From positions 1 to 32,199 of the forward strand of contig DAOURK010000042.1 of NCBI GenBank assembly GCA_030625085.1: a stretch of 32,199 nt of DNA, in the 5' to 3' direction. The position numbers and the translations under genes are program-made. The notes under the pieces are model-generated. The model searched no databases. It had not been told where the DNA came from and worked only from the letters and a program-made list of their open reading frames with translations. Shown in pieces: positions 6,664 through 22,380 of the stretch. Source of the DNA: Pseudomonadota bacterium. GTDB taxonomy: Bacteria > SZUA-182 > DTGQ01. How positions within the stretch are numbered: position 1 is the stretch's first letter; the number at the start of each line of letters is the position of its first letter.

Positions 6664-7521
6664 ATGGCAGAATCTCTTTTTGAAGTTACCTATACGCCCG
6701 ATAGCCGACTACGTCACCCCTTAAGACTTTTCCGGCAAATGTTTAGAGATTTGTGGAAGAGCCGAGGACTGGCCTGGCGGCTTTTGGTGCGTGATATCAG
6801 CGCCCAATATCGACAAACGGCACTCGGTTTGCTATGGGCTTTTTTACCCCCAATAGCCACAACCGCTGCTTTTGTCCTTCTCAATAAGGGTAAAGTACTT
6901 AATATTGGTGAAGGTACCAATATCCCTTATCCGGCATTTGTAATGTTGGGTATGATTTTTTGGGAGTTATTCAAAGAGGCGTTGAATGCGCCGATTAACA
7001 GTGTGATTAAAGCAAAATCCATGCTCAGTAAGATTAATTTCCCTCATGAAGCCATAATCCTTTCAGGCATTGGTCAGGTACTTTTCAATTTTTCAATAAA
7101 ACTATTATTGCTGATCCCCGTCTTCTGGTGGTTCAAGGTGTCGGTGGCAAGTTCCGTTCTTTTGGCGCCCGTGGCTGTATTATTTTTGTTATTATTTGGC
7201 AGCATGTTAGGGGTATTACTAGTTCCCTTTGGTATGCTGTTTCATGATTTTTCTAAGATTTTACCTATGATTACCATGTTATGGATGCTCATTACTCCTA
7301 TAGTTTATCCTCCCCCAAAGGAAGGTGTTTTGAGTAAGATTATCAGTTTTAATCCGGTTTCCCCGCTTATTGTTACCGCAAAGAATTGGGTCGTATCAGG
7401 ATTTGGGGCCGACAGTTTAGCCTTTTGGGTCGTGGGAAGTGTAAGTTTACTGCTGCTCTTTTTGGGATGGATTTCATATAAACTATCCATACCGATCATA
7501 ATCGAAAGAATGCAAGCCTAA
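6664..7521 (+). CDS. polysaccharide ABC transporter permease (Wzm type)
   Basis: Inner-membrane half of an ABC-2 exporter that moves a finished undecaprenyl-linked glycan to the periplasm. The amphipathic N-terminus contains RDISAQYRQTALGLLWAFL (about 42-60), the conserved region of Wzm/TagG/KpsM permeases. About six hydrophobic helices follow, with the usual HDFSKILPMITMLWMLITP. The length of 285 is a little above the common 260. It pairs with the ATPase gene 88 bases downstream. In ABC-dependent pathways the whole chain is built in the cytoplasm, which fits the many cytoplasmic glycosyltransferases here. AGGGG about 10 bases before the ATG serves as SD. Confidence 0.92.
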   Translation: MAESLFEVTYTPDSRLRHPLRLFRQMFRDLWKSRGLAWRLLVRDISAQYRQTALGLLWAFLPPIATTAAFVLLNKGKVLNIGEGTNIPYPAFVMLGMIFWELFKEALNAPINSVIKAKSMLSKINFPHEAIILSGIGQVLFNFSIKLLLLIPVFWWFKVSVASSVLLAPVAVLFLLLFGSMLGVLLVPFGMLFHDFSKILPMITMLWMLITPIVYPPPKEGVLSKIISFNPVSPLIVTAKNWVVSGFGADSLAFWVVGSVSLLLLFLGWISYKLSIPIIIERMQA

Positions 7522-7609: not shown

Positions 7610-8809
7610 ATGAGTGAAATTCTTATTAGCGTTGAAAATATAAATAAAAAATTTTGTCGTGATCTCAAACGTTCCCTTTGGTATGGAATTAAAGATTTAT
7701 CCTATGAATTTATTGGGCTTAATAAAATAAATGGACATCTTCGGAAACATGAATTTTGGTCTCTTAAAAATGTTAGTTTTGAGGTTAAGCGAGGCGAATG
7801 TTTAGGACTAATTGGTCCTAATGGAGCAGGGAAAAGTACTTTGTTGAAGATGCTACACGGCTTAATTAAACCGGATGCTGGGAAAATTATAATGCGTGGG
7901 CGGGTAGGGGCCCTGATCGAATTGGGAGCCGGTTTCAATCCTATATTAACAGGAAGAGAGAATATATATATCAACGGCGCAGTATTAGGATTTTCTAAAA
8001 AAGAAATGGACAAAAAGCTTGATGATATAATTGATTTTGCTGAAATCGGTGACTTTATTAACGCACCTGTCCAGAGTTACAGTTCGGGCATGAAAGTGAG
8101 ATTGGGTTTTGCTATAGCTGCCCAAATGAACCCGGATATACTTCTTATCGATGAAATATTGGCGGTTGGAGATGTAGGTTTTAGGGCAAAATGCTATAAT
8201 GCTATCCACAAATTAAACATGAATGCTGCCGTAATTTTTGTATCACACAGCATGCCCTCAATTGCGCGTATATCTTCTAAGTGCATGGTTCTAAATAAAG
8301 GCCGCTCAATTTTTCAAGGTACGGCAGATAATGCTATTCAGCAATATTATTCTCTTTTTGAGGAAGAAAAATTAGATATTCAATATCCGGCGGGAAGTGG
8401 CGAAGCATTAATTGAGAGAATGGAAATCTATGCCATAGAAGGGCATGAAAACGAGATATTTCGATTCGGTGATTCCATGACTATTTCTTGTGATATAAAG
8501 GTTTCACCGAAATATAAGACTTTTTTAATCTCAATCACCTTCATGAATCAAGAAATGCAGCTTATCGCCCAGTGTCATTCCGGCTATAATAAAGTTGTTC
8601 TTGAAAATGATGGTCATTCGAAAAAGATACAAATAACCATACCAAAACTTATTCTTAATCCGGGAACGTACGCAATTAATGTAATTATATTTGATGAAAC
8701 AAATCAAAAATATTTGGGTTGGTACCTCAAGGCTAAAAAATTCAAGGTTGTTGGTGAATTTGTCGGAGGCGCTCATATTCAATTACTCGGCGCATGGAAC
8801 GTGATGTAA
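7610..8809 (+). CDS. polysaccharide ABC transporter ATPase with glycan-recognition domain (Wzt type)
   Basis: ATPase that powers export with the preceding permease. Walker A GPNGAGKST is at residues 69-77, the ABC signature YSSGMKVRL at about 157-165, Walker B ILLIDE at 177-182, and the switch His at 213 in VSHSM. These sit in an N-terminal domain of about 240 residues. Residues from about 245 to 399 form an extra beta-rich region (FRFGDSMTISCDIKVSP, LNPGTYAINVIIFDE) matching the position and style of the Wzt C-terminal carbohydrate-binding domain. In O9a-type systems that domain recognises the terminal modification of the chain, so the exported glycan probably carries a capping group. A methyltransferase follows immediately, which is suggestive. 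Confidence 0.93.
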   Translation: MSEILISVENINKKFCRDLKRSLWYGIKDLSYEFIGLNKINGHLRKHEFWSLKNVSFEVKRGECLGLIGPNGAGKSTLLKMLHGLIKPDAGKIIMRGRVGALIELGAGFNPILTGRENIYINGAVLGFSKKEMDKKLDDIIDFAEIGDFINAPVQSYSSGMKVRLGFAIAAQMNPDILLIDEILAVGDVGFRAKCYNAIHKLNMNAAVIFVSHSMPSIARISSKCMVLNKGRSIFQGTADNAIQQYYSLFEEEKLDIQYPAGSGEALIERMEIYAIEGHENEIFRFGDSMTISCDIKVSPKYKTFLISITFMNQEMQLIAQCHSGYNKVVLENDGHSKKIQITIPKLILNPGTYAINVIIFDETNQKYLGWYLKAKKFKVVGEFVGGAHIQLLGAWNVM

Positions 8810-8815
8810 TTGCTC

Positions 8816-9763
8816 ATGAAGGAGATTACTGGTCAATTATATTGTTCCTTCTGTGGTGGTGAATGTTTTTTTCGTTATCGGATGGGGGAGTATAATATTT
8901 GGCAATGCCAAAAATGCAAGACGGGAAGTGTATGGCTGAAGCCGAGTCTGGAAGTATTGAAAAAATATTATGATGGATTTTTACCTCATCTTGACGTAAA
9001 AAGGATAGTTGTTGTGAAATCGGCTGCCAAAAATTTGTTTCCCCATCTGGGTATTTGCTCTGCAGGTAATTTAAAAATGCTCGATATCGGAGGAGGAGGA
9101 GGTTTCTTCGGTAAGGCCTTTGAGGATTTAGGGTATGGAGAGTGTACCTATGTAGATCTTGATGTGAAGTCATGCCGTTTTGCCCGAAACAGCCTCAGGC
9201 TTAAAAGAGTATTTAATTGTGATGCAATGAATATAAAAGAACATATAAATCAAAAATTCGATTTTATTTATTGTCGTCATCTTATTGAACATCTTCCGGA
9301 TCCTACAGCGTTTCTAAAAAAGATAATGTCCTATTTAAATGATCACGGAATATTTGTTGTTCAGTTTCCTAACGGTAATTCTTTAGAATATCTCGCCTAT
9401 TCTAACCCAGGCATAACCCGGAGATTTGTCCAAGTTCGTGAAACAAATAATTATTCGAAGCTAAGGGTTTATTGGATAATGATCAGTGGGGGTATGCTTC
9501 ACGGGCTCGATCCGCCCCGCCATCTATGGGCAATTACCGAAGCAGGGATTAAGAAGTGGGCTGATGATAAAAAGGTAATGTGCCATGTTAAGGCTTATCA
9601 TCTAGGTGATCCGGCCTACTCGCCTTATTATAAAAAAGGAAAAACCCTGAAAGGTAAGGTAAGAGAGTTCCTTGGGCAGCGAATACTGAGTTCGGTTTAT
9701 GGCGGCACCCATCTGGTAGCTGTCCTTCAACAAAAACCTTCCCCAAAAATAGAAAAATGCTGA
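8816..9763 (+). CDS. SAM-dependent methyltransferase with N-terminal zinc ribbon
   Basis: A class I methyltransferase. Four cysteines (CSFC at 10-13 and CQKC at 31-34) make a small zinc-ribbon-like N-terminus common in glycan-locus methyltransferases. The SAM-binding motif I is MLDIGGGGGFFG, and CRHLIEHLPDPTAFL is the later conserved block typical of the Methyltransf_11/23 type. The C-terminal part (PPRHLWAITEAGIKKWADD) also fits. It lies 6 bases after the Wzt-like ATPase; a TTG at 8810 is an alternative start. Position suggests it methylates the glycan or its terminus, or a sugar intermediate, in the cytoplasm. The end overlaps the next gene by 7 bases. Confidence 0.85.
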   Translation: MKEITGQLYCSFCGGECFFRYRMGEYNIWQCQKCKTGSVWLKPSLEVLKKYYDGFLPHLDVKRIVVVKSAAKNLFPHLGICSAGNLKMLDIGGGGGFFGKAFEDLGYGECTYVDLDVKSCRFARNSLRLKRVFNCDAMNIKEHINQKFDFIYCRHLIEHLPDPTAFLKKIMSYLNDHGIFVVQFPNGNSLEYLAYSNPGITRRFVQVRETNNYSKLRVYWIMISGGMLHGLDPPRHLWAITEAGIKKWADDKKVMCHVKAYHLGDPAYSPYYKKGKTLKGKVREFLGQRILSSVYGGTHLVAVLQQKPSPKIEKC

Positions 9764-11106
9764 GAATTTGTTTATATTGTTCTCGATATAATTTTGAACC
9801 GATGAACCTTATGCCTTTGGGGATTGGGTATATTGCCGCTTATCTTATTCATCAGGGAATAGTCAGCGAAACCGAAATATGTATTGTTGATAATCTTGAT
9901 GAGGCTATGGCTTTTAAACCCGATATTTTAGGTGTAAGCGCCGTTAGTCAGGTTATTAAACAAGCGCGTGATTTTGCCGGGGAGTGCAAGAAAAAATTTG
10001 GGTGCCTCACTGTTTTAGGGGGCTACCATGTTACCTCTATTCCCGATAAACTTCCTCAAGAATTTGATATCGGCGTTATAGGAGAGGGAGAGAATACCTT
10101 TGCCGAAATTGTCAGACTTTATCAAACGAATCAACTGACAACAAAAGCTTTGACACAGGTTAAAGGCATTTGCTGGCGCCAAGGCCTTGAAATTGTAATG
10201 AATGAGCGCAGAGAGTTAATTGAAAATATAGATTCTCTTCCATGGCCATACAGACATAAAGAATATTCAAAAGAGGCCCCAATATTTACTTCCAGGGGCT
10301 GTCCCTACAACTGCATTTTCTGCGCTTCTCATCAATTTTGGTGCGATCGTTTTCGTTTGCGCAGTTCAGATTCCATTGTTGCGGAGATTCATTACCTCGT
10401 CAATAAATATCAACCAAAGGAATGTGTTATTTTGGATGATCTTTGGATGGCTAATAAAAAACGTTTTCGGGAATGTGTAGAGAAGTTAATAGAACTTAAG
10501 ATCCCCGAAAAAGTAAGTTTTAGAGGATTTTGTCGCTCAAATCTCATTGGGGAGGAAGAGATTATCCTTTTAAAAAAGATGAATTACAGATTTATTCGTT
10601 TTGGAGCGGAAACAGGTTCTGACAAATTACTCAAATATTTGAAAGGAGATAATATTTCAGTAGCTGATCATCAAAGGGTAATCGACTTGTGCCAAAAGCA
10701 TAATATAAAATGCGGTGCTTCGTTTATGTTCGGCGTGCCTGGAGAAACAAGGGAAGATCTGGAAGCCACCATACATTTTTTACATAAAAACGTGGGTAAG
10801 TTTAAAATTATAGGTTTTTACTTTTTTAATCCTATTCCAGGGACCACAATTTGGAATCGGATGAAAAGTAAGGGTATGATTACTGATGATTTTCAATTTG
10901 AGCGTTTGCAACTGGATTTTAAAAAAGTGAATTTTTCCTGGGATAAGGTCATGTATTTTAATCGGGAAAATGTTCCTCTTGATGAGTTTCGGAAAATAAT
11001 AGAAAAAATCAGAGCTGATTTTATCGACATAAACAAACCAAGGAAAAAGCTTATCTGGTATAACCGGCTAAACAGATATCTTGCTAAATGCTTGCCAATA
11101 AGATAA
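9757..11106 (+). CDS. B12-binding-type radical SAM protein
   Basis: Radical SAM enzyme with the order N-terminal cobalamin-binding-like domain (1 to about 155; PLGIGYIAAYL, VLGGYHVTSIPD, IGEGENTF) and a TIM-barrel with the cluster motif C182-P-Y-N-C186-I-F-C189 preceded by TSRG. The second half has FRFGAETGSDKLLKYLKGD and SFMFGVPGETREDLEATIHF, both usual for the family. Members methylate unactivated carbons or rearrange substrates. I do not see a clear DxHxxG cobalamin ligand, so B12 may be bound base-off or not at all. In this position it may act on a sugar or lipid carrier intermediate; that is inference. The cluster is oxygen-sensitive, which fits an anaerobe. Confidence 0.87.
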   Translation: MLRICLYCSRYNFEPMNLMPLGIGYIAAYLIHQGIVSETEICIVDNLDEAMAFKPDILGVSAVSQVIKQARDFAGECKKKFGCLTVLGGYHVTSIPDKLPQEFDIGVIGEGENTFAEIVRLYQTNQLTTKALTQVKGICWRQGLEIVMNERRELIENIDSLPWPYRHKEYSKEAPIFTSRGCPYNCIFCASHQFWCDRFRLRSSDSIVAEIHYLVNKYQPKECVILDDLWMANKKRFRECVEKLIELKIPEKVSFRGFCRSNLIGEEEIILLKKMNYRFIRFGAETGSDKLLKYLKGDNISVADHQRVIDLCQKHNIKCGASFMFGVPGETREDLEATIHFLHKNVGKFKIIGFYFFNPIPGTTIWNRMKSKGMITDDFQFERLQLDFKKVNFSWDKVMYFNRENVPLDEFRKIIEKIRADFIDINKPRKKLIWYNRLNRYLAKCLPIR

Positions 11107-11132: not shown

Positions 11133-13835
11133 ATGGTAATGCCAACAGTTAAAGAAACAACACAAAAACAGGGGATATGTGTTGGTTGTGGGCTTTGTGC
11201 TTTCATCTGTCCAAAAGATGCCATTAATATGCACTGGAGCAAAGAGCAGAAATGGTGGCCCATAATTGATGAGGCGAAATGTAATGAGTGCGGGCTTTGT
11301 ACTGAAGTGTGTCCGCAAACACCCAAAATGATAGCGAAATATGCAATAGAGGCAGCAAGAGAAGGTGAACGTTTCGGCCTTCAAGATGCCGGGTATTTTA
11401 TCGCCTATGATTTGAATCAGGAGAATCGGATTCGCAGCGCTTCAGGAGGTGCGACGAACGCTATACTGAAACATCTTCTGGGCACAGGGGAAATCGATGG
11501 GGTGATTGCCTCCGTCCCTGTGATGGCGCCTATAGGGCAACCGCACTATGAAATGAAAATTATTAGATCCATGGAGGAATTGGAAAAAGCAAGAAGTTCA
11601 CATTATTATCCCTTACGATACGATAATGTCTTAAGAAAAATAAGTCAGGATAAGAGCAAATATGCTGTTACAGGGACACCTTGTATCTTTCATGGACTTA
11701 AAAAATTACCTGAACATATTTTAGATAAAATTAAATTTACCTTTTGTTTAGCCTGTGGCTATTCGGTTAACGGACAATTTTTAGATTGTTTGGCCAAGCA
11801 GGAAGGGGTCCGGGATAAAGAAGGCTATATCGCCAATTTGCGAGATAAATTTGGAGGCATTCCCAATGGAAAAAACTATAATGACTATTTTAAGCTGAAG
11901 GATCGAGATATCCGTCGCAATCGCTTTAAGACTGCTCATACCCATATGTGGCGAAATTATTACTTTGCCCGGGAATGCTGTTTTTATTGTGCGGATTTTT
12001 ATGGCTCAGAGGCAGATCTTACAGTGAAAGACGCCTGGGGTCCTTTGAGCAATGATCCTTTAGGAATCTCCTTGCTGGTGGTTAGAAATCAAAAACTTAT
12101 TTCCCTTTTACATGAACTCAAAAGGATGGAAAAGCTTCATCTTGAGCCATGTTCTGAAGAAGAAGTTTTTCGTTCTCAGAGGATTACACCCATATTTAAG
12201 CATATACAAGTTCGGGATAGACTGGTGTGGAAAAAAAGTATTCGCCGTGAGTTAGCCAAAGACAATTATCCTTTAGGCGCTACACGAAGATTTTGTCACA
12301 AAGATTCCTGGAATTATTTCCGGCTCAAATCTATAATGCATTCAGTAAAATTTATATATACACATTTTGGCCACAGGCCGATAAGCGGCATGGTTATCAC
12401 AGCCAAAACCTTTAATAGGTTAAAAAAGAAATTGAGAAAATATGCATTCACGCTGTTTCAGCGCCTAAAGCATATTAGCGATAGATATGCATGCCCGGGA
12501 AAACGTAAAAAACAAAAATACTATCTCAATAATGGAAATCTTAGGGTGCTCATTTCCGGGGGGTATGGTTACTGTAATGTCGGAGATGAAGCACAGCTTG
12601 CTGCAAATCTTCAACATTGGAGGAGAGCAGCGCCTCATTGTCGGCTGACTGTTCTGACACCAAATCTAAAGTATACGCAAAGAATCCATCATGATGTAAA
12701 ATTAGAGCATGCCCCACGAATTACCCTGTTTAGATGGGGCAGTAAGCCATATTTTGGCTCGGAAAAGTTATTTAAAAAATTGTTTTTTCTGCTGGCTCCC
12801 CTCTATATAATAAATGCCCATCTGATCAAGGCAGGATTCCCACCCTTGGGACTGACCACCCGACAGGCTCGAATGCTGAAAGAAATTAAAAGGGCTGATG
12901 TTTTATTTTTTTCCGGGGGGGGATATTTGACTGGAATGACCTTGACCAGGCTGTGGGATAATATGTTGCTTATCCGGTTGGCCCATGTCTTTGATGTGCC
13001 TGTCTTGTTATCAGGGCAAACAATTGGTGTTTTTAAAGATTCAATAAGCCGATCATTAGCCAAATGGGGCTTAAAAAAAGCCGAACTTATTTATTTGCGT
13101 GATCATTCTGATTCCCCCAGGGCTTTGTCTTCTATTGGTATTCAAGCCAAAAGGATAAGGAGTACCTTTGACGACGCCCTTTTTTTTCAGGCTGCTCCAT
13201 CGGAAAAGATTGCTGATTTTTTGAAAAAAAACAGCATTGATTCAAACAAACCCTATCTAGCGGTAAACGTGCATTATTGGGGGCAGAGTTTAAGAGATTC
13301 CAGGATAATCATGAAAGAAATAGCTTCTTCTCTTGATGCTATTCAGGAAGATTTAGATCTTCAAATTGTATTTGTGGCTATGCACAAGAAAGATGAGCCG
13401 GCTATTGACGAGGTAATCGTTTCAATGAAAAAATCCGGCGTCTTATTAAATCATGATTATTCTCCTGAATTAGCGGTGGGTATTATTCATAAGGCCGGCT
13501 TATGTCTGACCATGAAACATCACCCCATTATTTTTGCCTTGGCAGGGGGGGTGCCTACTGTCTCTATGGCCTTTGACGACTATTACTGGCATAAGAATAG
13601 AGGGGCCCAAAAGATATTCGGGCTCGAGGAGTTTGTTATTTTTGGATGTATTGAGGAGTTAAGTAAAAATATTTATGAAAAAATACGGGAAATTCACTCT
13701 CAAAGAGAAAAGCTTTCCTTTCAGATTAAAGCCCGCCTTGAAGAACTAAGACCGGAGGCCGGAGAAATAATATATCGATGGCGGGAGACTATACATTATC
13801 CTTGGCCTTCATCTACAGATTCCTTAACGCGCTGA
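11133..13835 (+). CDS. fusion of FrhB-like iron-sulfur protein and polysaccharide pyruvyl transferase
   Basis: A 900-residue two-part protein. Residues 1-65 hold two 4Fe-4S motifs (C16-C19-C22-C26-P and C50-C53-C56-C60-P). Residues from about 85 to 400 match the coenzyme F420 hydrogenase/dehydrogenase beta-subunit (FrhB N and C) type: RSASGGATNAILKHLL, VTGTPCIFHGLKKL, CCFYCADFYGSEADLTVKDAW. After a basic linker, residues from about 470 to 830 are a polysaccharide pyruvyl transferase domain: LISGGYGYCNVGDEAQ, FFSGGGYLTG, MKHHPIIFALAGGVPTVSMA. These two families often occur as neighbouring genes in capsule loci. Here they form one reading frame with no break, suggesting they work together on one modification. 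Pyruvyl transferases ketal-link pyruvate to sugars using PEP. The role of the FrhB part is unknown. ATG at 11139 is an alternative start. Confidence 0.88.
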   Translation: MVMPTVKETTQKQGICVGCGLCAFICPKDAINMHWSKEQKWWPIIDEAKCNECGLCTEVCPQTPKMIAKYAIEAAREGERFGLQDAGYFIAYDLNQENRIRSASGGATNAILKHLLGTGEIDGVIASVPVMAPIGQPHYEMKIIRSMEELEKARSSHYYPLRYDNVLRKISQDKSKYAVTGTPCIFHGLKKLPEHILDKIKFTFCLACGYSVNGQFLDCLAKQEGVRDKEGYIANLRDKFGGIPNGKNYNDYFKLKDRDIRRNRFKTAHTHMWRNYYFARECCFYCADFYGSEADLTVKDAWGPLSNDPLGISLLVVRNQKLISLLHELKRMEKLHLEPCSEEEVFRSQRITPIFKHIQVRDRLVWKKSIRRELAKDNYPLGATRRFCHKDSWNYFRLKSIMHSVKFIYTHFGHRPISGMVITAKTFNRLKKKLRKYAFTLFQRLKHISDRYACPGKRKKQKYYLNNGNLRVLISGGYGYCNVGDEAQLAANLQHWRRAAPHCRLTVLTPNLKYTQRIHHDVKLEHAPRITLFRWGSKPYFGSEKLFKKLFFLLAPLYIINAHLIKAGFPPLGLTTRQARMLKEIKRADVLFFSGGGYLTGMTLTRLWDNMLLIRLAHVFDVPVLLSGQTIGVFKDSISRSLAKWGLKKAELIYLRDHSDSPRALSSIGIQAKRIRSTFDDALFFQAAPSEKIADFLKKNSIDSNKPYLAVNVHYWGQSLRDSRIIMKEIASSLDAIQEDLDLQIVFVAMHKKDEPAIDEVIVSMKKSGVLLNHDYSPELAVGIIHKAGLCLTMKHHPIIFALAGGVPTVSMAFDDYYWHKNRGAQKIFGLEEFVIFGCIEELSKNIYEKIREIHSQREKLSFQIKARLEELRPEAGEIIYRWRETIHYPWPSSTDSLTR

Positions 13836-13851
13836 TATTGTTAACTAATTG

Positions 13852-14697
13852 ATGATTAATACTTTAAACAGACTTTTTGCTCCAACCCAAACCAACTTCG
13901 CCTCCAACGGCTGTAAGGGAGAGCTTCCTCTTTGTTTTTTTATGCATATTCCAAGATGCGGAGGAACATCCGTCGAACACGCCCTGAGGAAAATCTATCC
14001 TAATGCGGCAGGTTTACAGGCTGCTGCCTCATTTAGGGCCACGCAGGCCCTTTATCCGGAAGCCTCATCCAGCGAGAAAGATTTTCATATGTTCAAACTT
14101 CGGGAAAGTCTTCTGCTGTATCATATGGGCTGGCATATTCCATTGGTGCATGGTCATTATGGATTCAGCGAGCCGGCCTATCGGGAGTTTGGAACCAAAT
14201 ATAGATTTATTACAGTTCTTCGCGACCCGGTTGAGAGATTTATCTCTCTTTATTTTTACAACACTTTTAAATCCCAAAACTACGCCAAAATTAACATGGA
14301 CCTCAATACATTTATTCATTCGGAAGAAGGGCGATCGCAGGGGCGCCAATACGTTAAATTTATTGGAGGAGTTGCCGAAGGTGAGGACTATAAGTCTAAT
14401 AAAGCGATCGATAGAGCATTGGGCAATCTGGAAAAGTTTTCCGCAGTGGGAGTACTTGAACGGCTGGATGCGTTTATGGTAACTATACAGTCCGTTTTCG
14501 GTCACCGGATTTGCATACGCCATGAGAATAAAAATCCAAAACCGAGGATCGAATGGGAAGAGAGTGTTTCCGAAGATCTTCGGAACGAGGTTCGTTCCCT
14601 TTGTGGTCCGGATATAGAAGTTTATAATCATGCTCTGACCTTTTGTAAAAATGCCCCAGTAATCTTTTTGGATGACACGGGCGAGTTGAGAAGATGA
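13852..14697 (+). CDS. PAPS-dependent sulfotransferase (Sulfotransfer_2-like)
   Basis: Transfers sulfate from PAPS, probably to a sugar hydroxyl. The 5'-phosphosulfate loop FMHIPRCGGTSVEHALR is near residues 31-46, and the 3'-phosphate site FITVLRDPVERFISLYFYN near 118-136. These are the two diagnostic motifs of the carbohydrate sulfotransferase fold; the HIPRCGGTS form resembles the heparan 2-O-sulfotransferase-like group. The length of about 281 is typical. TTG at 13849 is an alternative start one codon earlier, and there is no good SD. It overlaps the next gene by ATGA. No PAPS-forming gene is in the window. Confidence 0.87.
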   Translation: MINTLNRLFAPTQTNFASNGCKGELPLCFFMHIPRCGGTSVEHALRKIYPNAAGLQAAASFRATQALYPEASSSEKDFHMFKLRESLLLYHMGWHIPLVHGHYGFSEPAYREFGTKYRFITVLRDPVERFISLYFYNTFKSQNYAKINMDLNTFIHSEEGRSQGRQYVKFIGGVAEGEDYKSNKAIDRALGNLEKFSAVGVLERLDAFMVTIQSVFGHRICIRHENKNPKPRIEWEESVSEDLRNEVRSLCGPDIEVYNHALTFCKNAPVIFLDDTGELRR

Positions 14698-15992
14698 AAA
14701 CTTTTAAGACGGTGTTATTTAGATTGACTAAAATACCAATACCCTTTTTAAAAAAAATATTGGTTGTTGATTTAAGGAAGTGGCATGGCCTCAATTATCA
14801 AATTATTTCAGCTTTGTGTTTATGGAAGGGGTATAAAGTAATATTTTTTAAATACAGAAAAATCTTTGAGCTCAAGGATGATTTTACCAAAGATAATGTT
14901 ACCAAAGATGCTTATAAGTCTATTATTTTGCATGATATACCTATTTATGAGGTAGCCATTTATTCCATTTGTGTAGATCTTAAAATTTTCCCGTCTGAGC
15001 TGGACCTCGATAATCCGGAACATATTCAGACAACCATAAAATGGTATAAGAGGTCGGCTGAGATCATAGAAAACATGGTTTATTATTTTAACCATTACCC
15101 GATTGTCAGGGTGGTTATATTACAGGGACATTTACCTGAAGCAACTGCATCCCGGATAACAGCTCATAGGAGAGGGATAGAAGTGATTTCTTTTGAAAAT
15201 ACCTTCAATAAAACAAAATTAGTATGGGATGATGTGTCTGGTATTACGGTAAATAAAAATTTGGCCAAAAATTATTTCTGGAAATGGGAAAATACTATCA
15301 ATCACCAACTTGCCTGGCAAAGTGTGGATACCTATCTTAAGAATATAAAGAATAATAAAACTGAAGAACATGAGAGCCCTTTAGAGAGTTTGTCAATTCC
15401 CAAAAAGAAAAAGTGTATTTTGTTTTTTGGGCAAGTCTATACGGATTCTTCCGTCTTATTCGGAATTAACGATTTCAATAATCCGGTCACCATTATTCAT
15501 GAATTGGCTAAATACTCTGAAGCAAATGATTTTGAGTTGATCATTAAATTACATCCAAAAGAGGTAGAAGGTATTGACATTTTAAAAAGAAAATATGATT
15601 TACTTACTTACCAAAAAATTATGTCTCTTCAGGCTTTATCAGAGATCATTCGATCAACGAATATCTTCATAGATTCTAAAAATCAATACGATACATATAA
15701 TTTCATTGACAGGGCAGACATTTGCGTTACCATAAATTCTCAAGCAGGATTAGAAGCCTTGATAAAAGGGAAAGATGTTATTTCTTGTGGTAATGCAAGC
15801 TATGGCGGGTTAGGGTTTACCTTTGACGCCCAAAACAGAGATATGTTGATATTTTTTTTAGACTTAAAATTAAAACACGGAGTTTCTTTTATAGATGATA
15901 ATAAAATAAATAAATTTTTTTATATTTTTAATGAGCTCTATTGTATAAATAAAAATGAAGAAGACTTTGTAACTAAAATTATTGAAGGATGA
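14694..15992 (+). CDS. capsule-synthesis-type glycosyltransferase (KpsC/KpsS-like)
   Basis: 432 residues, resembling the Capsule_synth family that includes the Kdo transferases KpsC and KpsS. Supporting motifs are FFGQVYTDSSVLFG near residue 246 (the QVxxDxS pattern), LIIKLHPKE near 284 (the His-Pro motif), and DICVTINSQAGLEALIKGKD near 345. GNASYGGLGFT follows, as expected for the nucleotide-sugar site. The N-terminal half (LVVDLRKWHGLNYQIISALCLWKGYKVIFF) is a Rossmann-like domain. In classic capsule systems KpsC/S builds the Kdo linker on phosphatidylglycerol; here it may add an acidic sugar within the chain. ATGA overlaps at both ends show tight coupling with the sulfotransferase and the next glycosyltransferase. 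Confidence 0.72.
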   Translation: MKTFKTVLFRLTKIPIPFLKKILVVDLRKWHGLNYQIISALCLWKGYKVIFFKYRKIFELKDDFTKDNVTKDAYKSIILHDIPIYEVAIYSICVDLKIFPSELDLDNPEHIQTTIKWYKRSAEIIENMVYYFNHYPIVRVVILQGHLPEATASRITAHRRGIEVISFENTFNKTKLVWDDVSGITVNKNLAKNYFWKWENTINHQLAWQSVDTYLKNIKNNKTEEHESPLESLSIPKKKKCILFFGQVYTDSSVLFGINDFNNPVTIIHELAKYSEANDFELIIKLHPKEVEGIDILKRKYDLLTYQKIMSLQALSEIIRSTNIFIDSKNQYDTYNFIDRADICVTINSQAGLEALIKGKDVISCGNASYGGLGFTFDAQNRDMLIFFLDLKLKHGVSFIDDNKINKFFYIFNELYCINKNEEDFVTKIIEG

Positions 15993-16813
15993 ACATGCAA
16001 CCCCTCGTTTCGGTTATTATGCCGGCTTATAATGCTCAAAATTTTATCGCTGAAGCCATTGAATCGGTTATTCATCAAACATATAAAAATTTAGAATTGA
16101 TTATTGTTGATGACGGGAGCAAAGACAAAACCTATGATATTTGCCGGCATTATTCCAACAAATACGGCAACATAAAATTGCTTAGGCATCACCATGGAGG
16201 CAATCAAGGAGTAAGTAAATCGAGAATGCTGGCGCTGAAGAAAAGTAATGGAAAATATGTGGCTTTCTGTGATGCGGATGACCTGTTTTTGCCGAATAAA
16301 ATTGAAATACAAATAGCAAAATTAGAACAATATAATTATATTGCCATGTGTCATACAGCCGTAAAACTTAAATCAGATTCTGATGTCAATAATAAGCAGT
16401 TAAAAGCCTTCCATCCCTTTTCACAAGATTATATTTATGCATACCATAAGCAATCATATTTTCTCAAACATAATAGAATTTGTAATTCTACGGTAATTGC
16501 TCGTGCGGAATTACTCAAAAATTTGAATTTTTCCTTCAGGCAGCTCTTTCAATTTGAGGATTGGTTGTTGTGGGTTTTGTTATCAATAAAGGGCAAGTTT
16601 CTGTTTTTAAACGAGCAATTAACCGAGTATCGTTATCACAGGGAATCATCATCATATTTAGTAAACAGGCAGCCCTTAAAAAAACATTATTCATTCATTG
16701 AATTTTACTTCCTTGTTTTGATTAAGTCCCCTAATTTGGCTTATCGATTGAAATCATTGCATCAACTATTTATGACTTTGAGAAGGCTTCATTCGGTGTA
16801 TAAAAAGGACTAG
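15989..16813 (+). CDS. family 2 glycosyltransferase
   Basis: Cytoplasmic or membrane-associated inverting glycosyltransferase of the GT-A fold. Motifs are VSVIMPAYNAQNFIAEAIES at the N-terminus, LIIVDDGSKDKT, and the DxD metal site FCDADDLF near residue 93. FEDWLLWVLL near 190 includes the usual ED pair. At 274 residues it is a plain single-domain enzyme without membrane helices. It starts by ATGA overlap with the preceding gene. Its TAG stop (16811-16813) is built from the CTAG target of the insertion described at 16811-20190. In the reconstructed uninterrupted operon it would be followed 13 bases later by the GT4 gene now at 20205. Confidence 0.9.
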   Translation: MNMQPLVSVIMPAYNAQNFIAEAIESVIHQTYKNLELIIVDDGSKDKTYDICRHYSNKYGNIKLLRHHHGGNQGVSKSRMLALKKSNGKYVAFCDADDLFLPNKIEIQIAKLEQYNYIAMCHTAVKLKSDSDVNNKQLKAFHPFSQDYIYAYHKQSYFLKHNRICNSTVIARAELLKNLNFSFRQLFQFEDWLLWVLLSIKGKFLFLNEQLTEYRYHRESSSYLVNRQPLKKHYSFIEFYFLVLIKSPNLAYRLKSLHQLFMTLRRLHSVYKKD

Positions 16814-21474: not shown

Positions 21475-22380
21475 GTGCTGCCAAATTTTTTGATTATTGG
21501 TGCACAAAAATCAGCGAGTACTTTTATCCAGTTATGCTTAGCAGAGCATCCCGAGGTATTCATGCCTTCCGGTGAAATACCTTATTTTGAGGACCCCGAT
21601 TATTCTAAAACGGAACGGGAAAAGTTTGAAAGGCTTTTTCATGGCGCACAGGGCAAGAAAGCCATAGGAATGAAGAGGCCAAACTATTTAGCGAAATCTG
21701 AGTGCCCGGGGCGAATACATGAGGTTATTCCCAAGGTAAAACTTATTGTTGTTCTTCGTGACCCAATCGAAAGAGCCATATCAGCATATTTTCATTATAT
21801 TCGTGAAGGCTTTATTCCTCCCTGTCCCATTGAAGAGGGCATGATAAAAATACTTGATGGGAAGTACCGGCAAAAGTGGCCAAGGTCCCGGGAAATTGTT
21901 GAATTTGGTTTTTATTATCAACATCTCAAAAGATATTTCGCGGTATTTGATGAAGAACAGGTATGTATTTTATTCCACAAAGACATTCTTCAAAATAGGT
22001 TGAAACAGATACAAAAAATTTATCAATTTCTTGGAATTGATGTTTCATACATTCCTCAGCAATTAGATAGCAGACCTCAAGCGGCCCTTTATTCCCTTTG
22101 GAGACTTTGGATTTTAAGGCTTCGCAATAATTCCCTGTATATTTACTCGAGAGAGAGAACTCGTCTGTATTTCAAAGAACAAAGCTCACTGGATAAGATG
22201 ATATGTTTTGCAATTAATGGTATAGATAGCCTTTTTTTATCACGATTATTGTGTGCGAAAAGACCAAATATAAGCGAGAGTTTACGGCGAAGATTATCCT
22301 TACTTTATAAACACGATATCAGGGACATTGGCAAGCTCTTGAAGATAAATTGCTGGAATTCAATCAGAAATTCTTATTGA
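21475..22380 (+). CDS. PAPS-dependent sulfotransferase (NDST/Sulfotransfer_1-like)
   Basis: Second carbohydrate sulfotransferase of the locus, of a different subtype from the one at 13852. The 5'-phosphosulfate loop is FLIIGAQKSASTFIQLCLAE at residues 5-24. The 3'-phosphate site is VVLRDPIERAISAYFHYIRE near 94-113. The early block HPEVFMPSGEIPYFED is usual for the heparan N-sulfotransferase-like group. The length of 301 is normal. The start is GTG with a weak AAAGAGAG upstream; no better in-frame start exists. It lies 46 bases after the GT4 gene. The acceptor is probably a sugar of the exported glycan. Confidence 0.88.
   Translation: MLPNFLIIGAQKSASTFIQLCLAEHPEVFMPSGEIPYFEDPDYSKTEREKFERLFHGAQGKKAIGMKRPNYLAKSECPGRIHEVIPKVKLIVVLRDPIERAISAYFHYIREGFIPPCPIEEGMIKILDGKYRQKWPRSREIVEFGFYYQHLKRYFAVFDEEQVCILFHKDILQNRLKQIQKIYQFLGIDVSYIPQQLDSRPQAALYSLWRLWILRLRNNSLYIYSRERTRLYFKEQSSLDKMICFAINGIDSLFLSRLLCAKRPNISESLRRRLSLLYKHDIRDIGKLLKINCWNSIRNSY

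Follow-up and report, generated by a model that had tools for sequence, protein, structure and literature searches.

An iron-sulfur protein of the FrhB family fused to a polysaccharide pyruvyl transferase: a possible lactyl-ether synthase of bacterial surface polysaccharides

An FrhB-like iron-sulfur protein and a polysaccharide pyruvyl transferase (PSPT) form a single 900-residue chain encoded in the window, a 32,199-nucleotide stretch of DNA from a Pseudomonadota bacterium. The preferred interpretation, to which we assign a probability of about 0.45, is that the fusion is a bifunctional polysaccharide-decorating enzyme that would build a 1-carboxyethyl (lactyl) ether on a sugar. The reading frame has the following features; the CsaB numbering (PEP-binding residues R148, H308 and K328, and R306 in the PEP site) is that of PMC10435577.

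11133..13835, + strand: FrhB-PSPT fusion reading frame, 900 amino acids, ATG start, single frame, 0 internal stops
11178..11318, + strand: ferredoxin-type dicluster domain, residues 16-62 (Fer4_7, 35.7 bits; gathering score 27)
11400..11633, + strand: FrhB_FdhB_N (PF04422), residues 90-167, with an SGG motif (37.1 bits; gathering score 22)
11658..12158, + strand: FrhB_FdhB_C (PF04432), residues 176-342 (64.6 bits; gathering score 23.3)
12450..12527, + strand: linker joining the FrhB and PSPT parts, residues about 440-465, a low-confidence prediction of a helix followed by a loop
12576..13574, + strand: PS_pyruv_trans domain (PF04230), residues 482-814 (100.4 bits; gathering score 25.3; profile positions 1-278 of 280)
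13098..13100, + strand: R656, aligned to PEP-binding R148 of CsaB
13515..13523, + strand: K795-H796-H797, with H797 aligned to PEP-binding H308 of CsaB and K795 at the R306 position
13593..13595, + strand: K821, counterpart of CsaB K328 according to inspection and motif comparison with WcaK (YEHKSAG)

All domains exceed their Pfam cut-offs, which bears out the description, in a first-pass annotation of this DNA, of one continuous 900-residue frame with both ferredoxin motifs and the full transferase domain. Membership in the FrhB/FdhB family is indicated by both Pfam domains, the N-terminal ferredoxin motifs and four FrhB cysteines, and membership in PF04230 by the full-domain score together with the equivalents of R148, H308 and K328. 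The ferredoxin cysteines are complete (8/8: C16, C19, C22, C26 and C50, C53, C56, C60). An additional set in FrhB_FdhB_C that the annotation had not listed (C184, C208, C283 and C286) is, to judge from the sequence, a putative third 4Fe-4S site. The PSPT domain finds its best NCBIfam match in CsaB and falls below the cut-off of the CsaB ketal pyruvyltransferase equivalog TIGR03609 (124.1 bits vs 213.1). As in a MurA/MurB-like scheme, a PEP-type transferase domain is here coupled, physically, to a partner of reductase fold.

The fusion looks real. The annotation had named a missed stop or a chimeric join near 12430-12530 as grounds for rejecting it; there is no break in composition at the junction and no internal stop, and the nearest relatives of both halves sit in FrhB-PSPT gene pairs, which argues against a chimera. 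Nor is the fusion an oddity: when 386 genomes were searched with a profile, 37 FrhB matches came to light, six of which, besides the one in the window, lie in fusions, with FrhB first in L081, L082 and L084 and PSPT first in L083, L085 and L086. All halves of the resulting four FrhB-PSPT and three PSPT-FrhB fusions exceed the Pfam cut-offs (12/12 for the six outside the window). Fused sequences are scattered over a tree of 127 FrhB domains, and the AU test rejects a single clade for either order (FrhB first, four fusions, p 7.6e-6; PSPT first, three fusions, p 2.1e-5); a shared origin of the window and L081 fusions is not rejected by this test (p 0.29). These results imply that fusion took place four times or more, unless fused genes have repeatedly split. 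The genome of the window carries a second, split FrhB/PSPT pair (L025, on contig C107), whose genes overlap by 4 nt, and the arrangement is likewise split in a same-family relative (L026), in which two tandem PSPT genes come after FrhB, with a 4-nt overlap between FrhB and the first of them (L026:4868-8745). A third FrhB_C gene of the host genome (G000:C60:56648-56956) has no PSPT match on its contig. A scan of viral contigs with the fusion sequence found no relative, and tblastn searches of phage and plasmid sequences gave half-length matches only.

The association extends far beyond the fusions. A scan of 84,980 species genomes was run with six FrhB queries, all PSPT-linked except that of Croceicoccus (L038), whose surroundings lack a PSPT; the 80 named loci obtained belong to cyanobacteria, Proteobacteria, Bacillota, Actinomycetota, Bacteroidota, Verrucomicrobiota and other groups. 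In this set, which represents the PSPT-linked branch of FrhB and not the whole family because the queries were nearly all PSPT-linked, a PSPT lies within 3 kb of FrhB in 72/80 loci and, in 43 of these, within 150 bp on the same strand; four of the eight loci that have no PSPT (L134, L147, L167, L169) stop at or close to the FrhB gene. A separate FrhB branch on the tree is without PSPT. All 30 PSPTs of one alignment (A8) match PF04230, many low-scoring ones included. The commonest other neighbors of the pair are Wzx flippases and glycosyltransferases; nitroreductases, considered as frequent neighbors, are absent from the 25 commonest neighbor families. The window PSPT groups with that of the fused L081 and the FrhB-linked verrucomicrobial L139 (support 95), and further close matches are FrhB-linked PSPTs of Nostocales.

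Split pairs overlap by 4 nt in L025, L026, L041 and L109, so that a single mutation could join them. It is accordingly conceivable that two genes of a polysaccharide locus were fused by chance through loss of an overlapping stop and that the fusion signifies no special chemistry. We consider this very improbable in view of fusions that recur in both orders and for which a single origin is rejected, the 72/80 linkage across phyla, and the clustering of FrhB-linked PSPTs on their tree (11 changes vs 30 when shuffled). The fusions, which arose repeatedly and independently in both orders, the overlaps within gene pairs and the 72/80 linkage instead strongly support a direct functional link between FrhB and PSPT, as had been proposed from the fusion itself, and the co-occurrence of the two families elsewhere, which the annotation had put forward for survey, proves to be widespread. 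The dependence is not mutual. Most PSPTs are without FrhB (about 6/69 PSPTs in 145 genomes sit at an FrhB, by position), and PF04230 occurs in E. coli and B. subtilis, where PF04432 is absent; ketal formation therefore needs no FrhB. FrhB is, so read, a dedicated partner of a subset of PSPTs and dispensable for ordinary pyruvate ketals.

Several loci deserve separate mention. The pair of Klebsiella aerogenes p35_D (L041) lies on a 13 kb plasmid with polysaccharide genes, among them a flippase-like gene and two glycosyltransferases, and has no match in E. coli genomes. On Ensifer, Sinorhizobium and Paracoccus plasmids (L044, L045, L036) the pair is found near genes for a zinc-binding dehydrogenase, a Gfo/Idh/MocA oxidoreductase and a histidine phosphatase, in a conserved cluster that in L044 and L036 also includes inositol-3-phosphate synthase. 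FrhB homologues on haloarchaeal plasmids (L046, L047, L048) overlap the gene upstream, which encodes a ferredoxin--nitrite reductase in L047 and L048 and a rhodanese-domain protein in L046; this is another reductase partnership of the FrhB family.

The two parts of the fusion were modeled apart and not at full length because rows that contain PSPT alone become misaligned to the FrhB half; each model has the expected fold. That of the FrhB part (mean pLDDT 75, with poor C-terminal helices) matches solved members of its family with Z scores of 21-30 (8riu_B, 30.0; F420-dependent sulfite reductase, 25.1; HCAR, 22.2), the matches being F420-reducing subunits, F420-dependent sulfite reductase, FrhB and HCAR. 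This family fold includes substrate-reducing enzymes, such as HCAR and sulfite reductase. The fold match and the SGG motif are consistent with FAD binding by the modeled FrhB part. F420 as cofactor was rejected for the host genome (4.9 Mb, 95.6% complete), which has no detectable F420 pathway: a search for F420 biosynthesis there gave no CofD match and a CofG match below the cut-off. On the gene content a role of coenzyme F420 is unlikely here, and for the same reason the name "coenzyme F420 hydrogenase" misleads. A flavin supplied with electrons by ferredoxin-type clusters is a plausible cofactor system. The PSPT model (pLDDT 86) has a GT-B-like fold; Pvg1p (5ax7), its sole sequence-profile match, is not among the best 50 fold matches listed.

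Among 55 aligned PSPT-linked FrhB relatives, eight cysteines (C16, C19, C22, C60 and C184, C208, C283, C286) are invariant, which would suffice for two 4Fe-4S clusters. The four remaining ferredoxin cysteines are missing from these 55 and are retained in the window protein and in most sequences from anaerobes. The conservation, 55/55, implies selection for electron transfer, and the FrhB fold is that of an oxidoreductase. Both considerations speak against the proposal that FrhB acts through its flavin with no net redox change, or serves as a redox-sensing or structural subunit, the reduced flavin or the scaffold stabilizing or gating the PSPT reaction. What recommends that proposal, which we regard as improbable, is that the reversed fusions L085 and L086 have no ferredoxin-domain match and that the PSPT-linked FrhB homologues of Lactiplantibacillus plantarum (L039:11947-13116) and Fundicoccus ignavus (L168:7968-9386) keep the fold and have lost the Fe-S ligand cysteines except the C208 equivalent. 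The latter two are possibly iron-free versions, for which a non-redox role is possible.

A redox step on the pyruvyl-type substituent, as the first-pass annotation had suggested, is the best reading of the FrhB part; the step, whose direction and product that annotation had left open, would reduce an enolpyruvyl ether and so yield a lactyl ether. In the PSPT domain, one sugar hydroxyl would attack phosphoenolpyruvate with departure of phosphate, and the product would halt at the enolpyruvyl ether instead of closing to the ketal. Low-potential electrons would enter the FrhB part through the ferredoxin-type 4Fe-4S clusters and pass by way of the FrhB 4Fe-4S cluster to the flavin, which would reduce the enolpyruvyl C=C bond. 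This path cannot be universal, since of the Fe-S cysteines the partners from L. plantarum and Fundicoccus retain only the C208 equivalent. In peptidoglycan synthesis MurA and MurB carry out enolpyruvyl transfer from PEP followed by flavin reduction, generating the lactyl ether of muramic acid; the enolpyruvyl route to F420 likewise ends in a lactyl group. By analogy, the logic proposed for the fusion would be that of MurA/MurB (muramic acid) and FbiA/FbiB (F420), on unrelated scaffolds. F420 synthesis from PEP passes through an enolpyruvyl intermediate and is completed by FbiB, which is in part of nitroreductase type (PMC8498797).

Glycan structures offer support. The Klebsiella K37 and K66 capsules contain 4-O-[(S)-1-carboxyethyl]-GlcA; K8, which has a pyruvyltransferase gene, is not known to carry a lactyl ether, and this counts against the lactyl reading. 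The same substituted sugar is present in the K22 capsule, as given by a reference title in PMC3857182. According to a Klebsiella cps survey, K8, K22, K37 and K66 are the only non-pyruvylated K types with pyruvyltransferase genes, and they have no ketal (PMC4616057); over all cps loci the survey also counts one gene for a coenzyme F420 hydrogenase and two for nitroreductases. The polysaccharide of Nostoc commune contains 3-O-[(R)-1-carboxyethyl]-D-glucuronic acid (PMC6017307, PMC5983295), and Nostocales carry the FrhB-PSPT pair, a correspondence at the level of the order. The Nostoc glycan and K22, with its transferase gene, lactyl ether and absence of a ketal, support the preferred reading. 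In the open literature, no paper was found that joins FrhB with polysaccharide pyruvyl transferase; the Klebsiella survey was the only one found to contain both coenzyme F420 and pyruvyl transferase, a review of pyruvylation makes no mention of hydrogenase, iron-sulfur, fusion or lactyl, and no biosynthetic route to non-peptidoglycan lactic-acid ethers was found in the open papers searched.

The main rival of the lactyl-ether reading assigns ordinary pyruvate-ketal formation to the PSPT domain and, to FrhB, a separate redox reaction on that glycan or on a precursor of it, before or after pyruvylation, such as reduction, deoxygenation or epimerization of the acceptor sugar. The PSPTs characterized in the literature consulted are all ketal formers (PMC6801904, PMC10435577), and the window PSPT, its best NCBIfam match being CsaB, retains R656, H797 and K821. 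Its residue at the R306 position (K795) is basic, as in ketal-forming enzymes. The H797 equivalent is invariant in all 126 PSPTs compared. In favor of the lactyl-ether reading, the R306 position is Arg in 30/34 solitary PSPTs and is changed in 55/92 that are FrhB-linked or fused vs 4/34 solitary ones (Fisher p 9e-7, uncorrected for kinship, a value that overstates the evidence because the sequences are related); since K795 is basic, this shift alone does not mark the window protein. FrhB pairs with many PSPT sub-types across phyla, which would require a single accessory to serve many acceptor chemistries; a step on the shared pyruvyl product is simpler, and we judge the separate redox step to be unlikely.

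The fusion sits in an ABC-type polysaccharide locus (contig C92) with glycosyltransferases among its genes, where its neighbors are as follows.

6664..7521, + strand: ABC-2 permease, Wzm-like
7610..8809, + strand: ABC ATPase with a Wzt_C domain
8810..9763, + strand: SAM-dependent methyltransferase
9757..11106, + strand: B12-binding radical SAM protein, adjoining the fusion upstream
13849..14697, + strand: sulfotransferase-like protein, adjoining the fusion downstream (Sulfotransfer_2, 22.6 bits, barely over the cut-off of 22)
14694..15992, + strand: KpsS/capsule-synthesis-like protein
15989..16813, + strand: family 2 glycosyltransferase

A second sulfotransferase-like gene is located at 21475-22380, and these two genes (13849-14697 and 21475-22380) suggest that the surface polysaccharide may be sulfated. 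In Pseudobutyrivibrio (L037:9708-10880), too, a radical SAM gene lies directly upstream of the PSPT/FrhB genes. A further modification of the substituent or the sugar by such radical SAM neighbors is possible.

Many bacterial glycans are known to carry lactic-acid ethers on sugars other than those of peptidoglycan. Tentatively, FrhB-PSPT, fused or paired, could represent a widespread and previously unrecognized lactyl-ether synthase, a ketal-type transferase turned enolpyruvyl transferase and joined by an Fe-S flavoprotein reductase, which would make 1-carboxyethyl sugars (e.g., nosturonic acid) in cyanobacteria, Proteobacteria, Bacillota, Bacteroidota and Actinomycetota; in lactic acid bacteria it would take iron-free forms. 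Were this so, the gene pair would predict a chemical group from sequence, polysaccharide genes of Nostoc, Klebsiella and others would become readable, a large number of FrhB proteins that currently take their name from F420 hydrogenase would gain a function, and the logic of PEP transferase and flavin reductase would have evolved apart from MurA/MurB.

Comparison with known systems places the fusion between several of them. With the ketal pyruvyl transferases CsaB, WcaK and Pvg1p (PF04230) it shares the PSPT domain, the GT-B-like fold, the R/H/K set of the PEP site and the location in a polysaccharide locus; it differs in its fused FrhB part, its score below the CsaB equivalog cut-off and the K in place of R306. 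With the FrhB/FpoF/Fsr/HCAR family (PF04422 and PF04432) it has in common the ferredoxin domain, the FrhB_N/FrhB_C fold and the conserved cysteines, whereas it is tied to PSPT and has no link to hydrogenase, formate dehydrogenase or an F420 pathway. The split pairs (Klebsiella aerogenes p35_D, Sinorhizobium, Paracoccus, Bacteroides, Nostocales, Bacillus, Bifidobacterium) combine the same two families, adjacent and often overlapping, in polysaccharide loci; they are encoded by two genes, and outside anaerobes most have lost one of the two ferredoxin clusters. MurA and MurB exemplify the logic proposed for the fusion, enolpyruvyl transfer from PEP and flavin reduction to a lactyl ether, whereas the fusion has unrelated folds in a single chain and would act on surface polysaccharide with electrons supplied through Fe-S clusters instead of NADPH. 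FbiD/FbiA and FbiB resemble the proposal in that a flavoenzyme completes an enolpyruvyl intermediate (PMC8498797), and differ from it in their phosphodiester chemistry with GTP activation and in their nitroreductase-type reductase.
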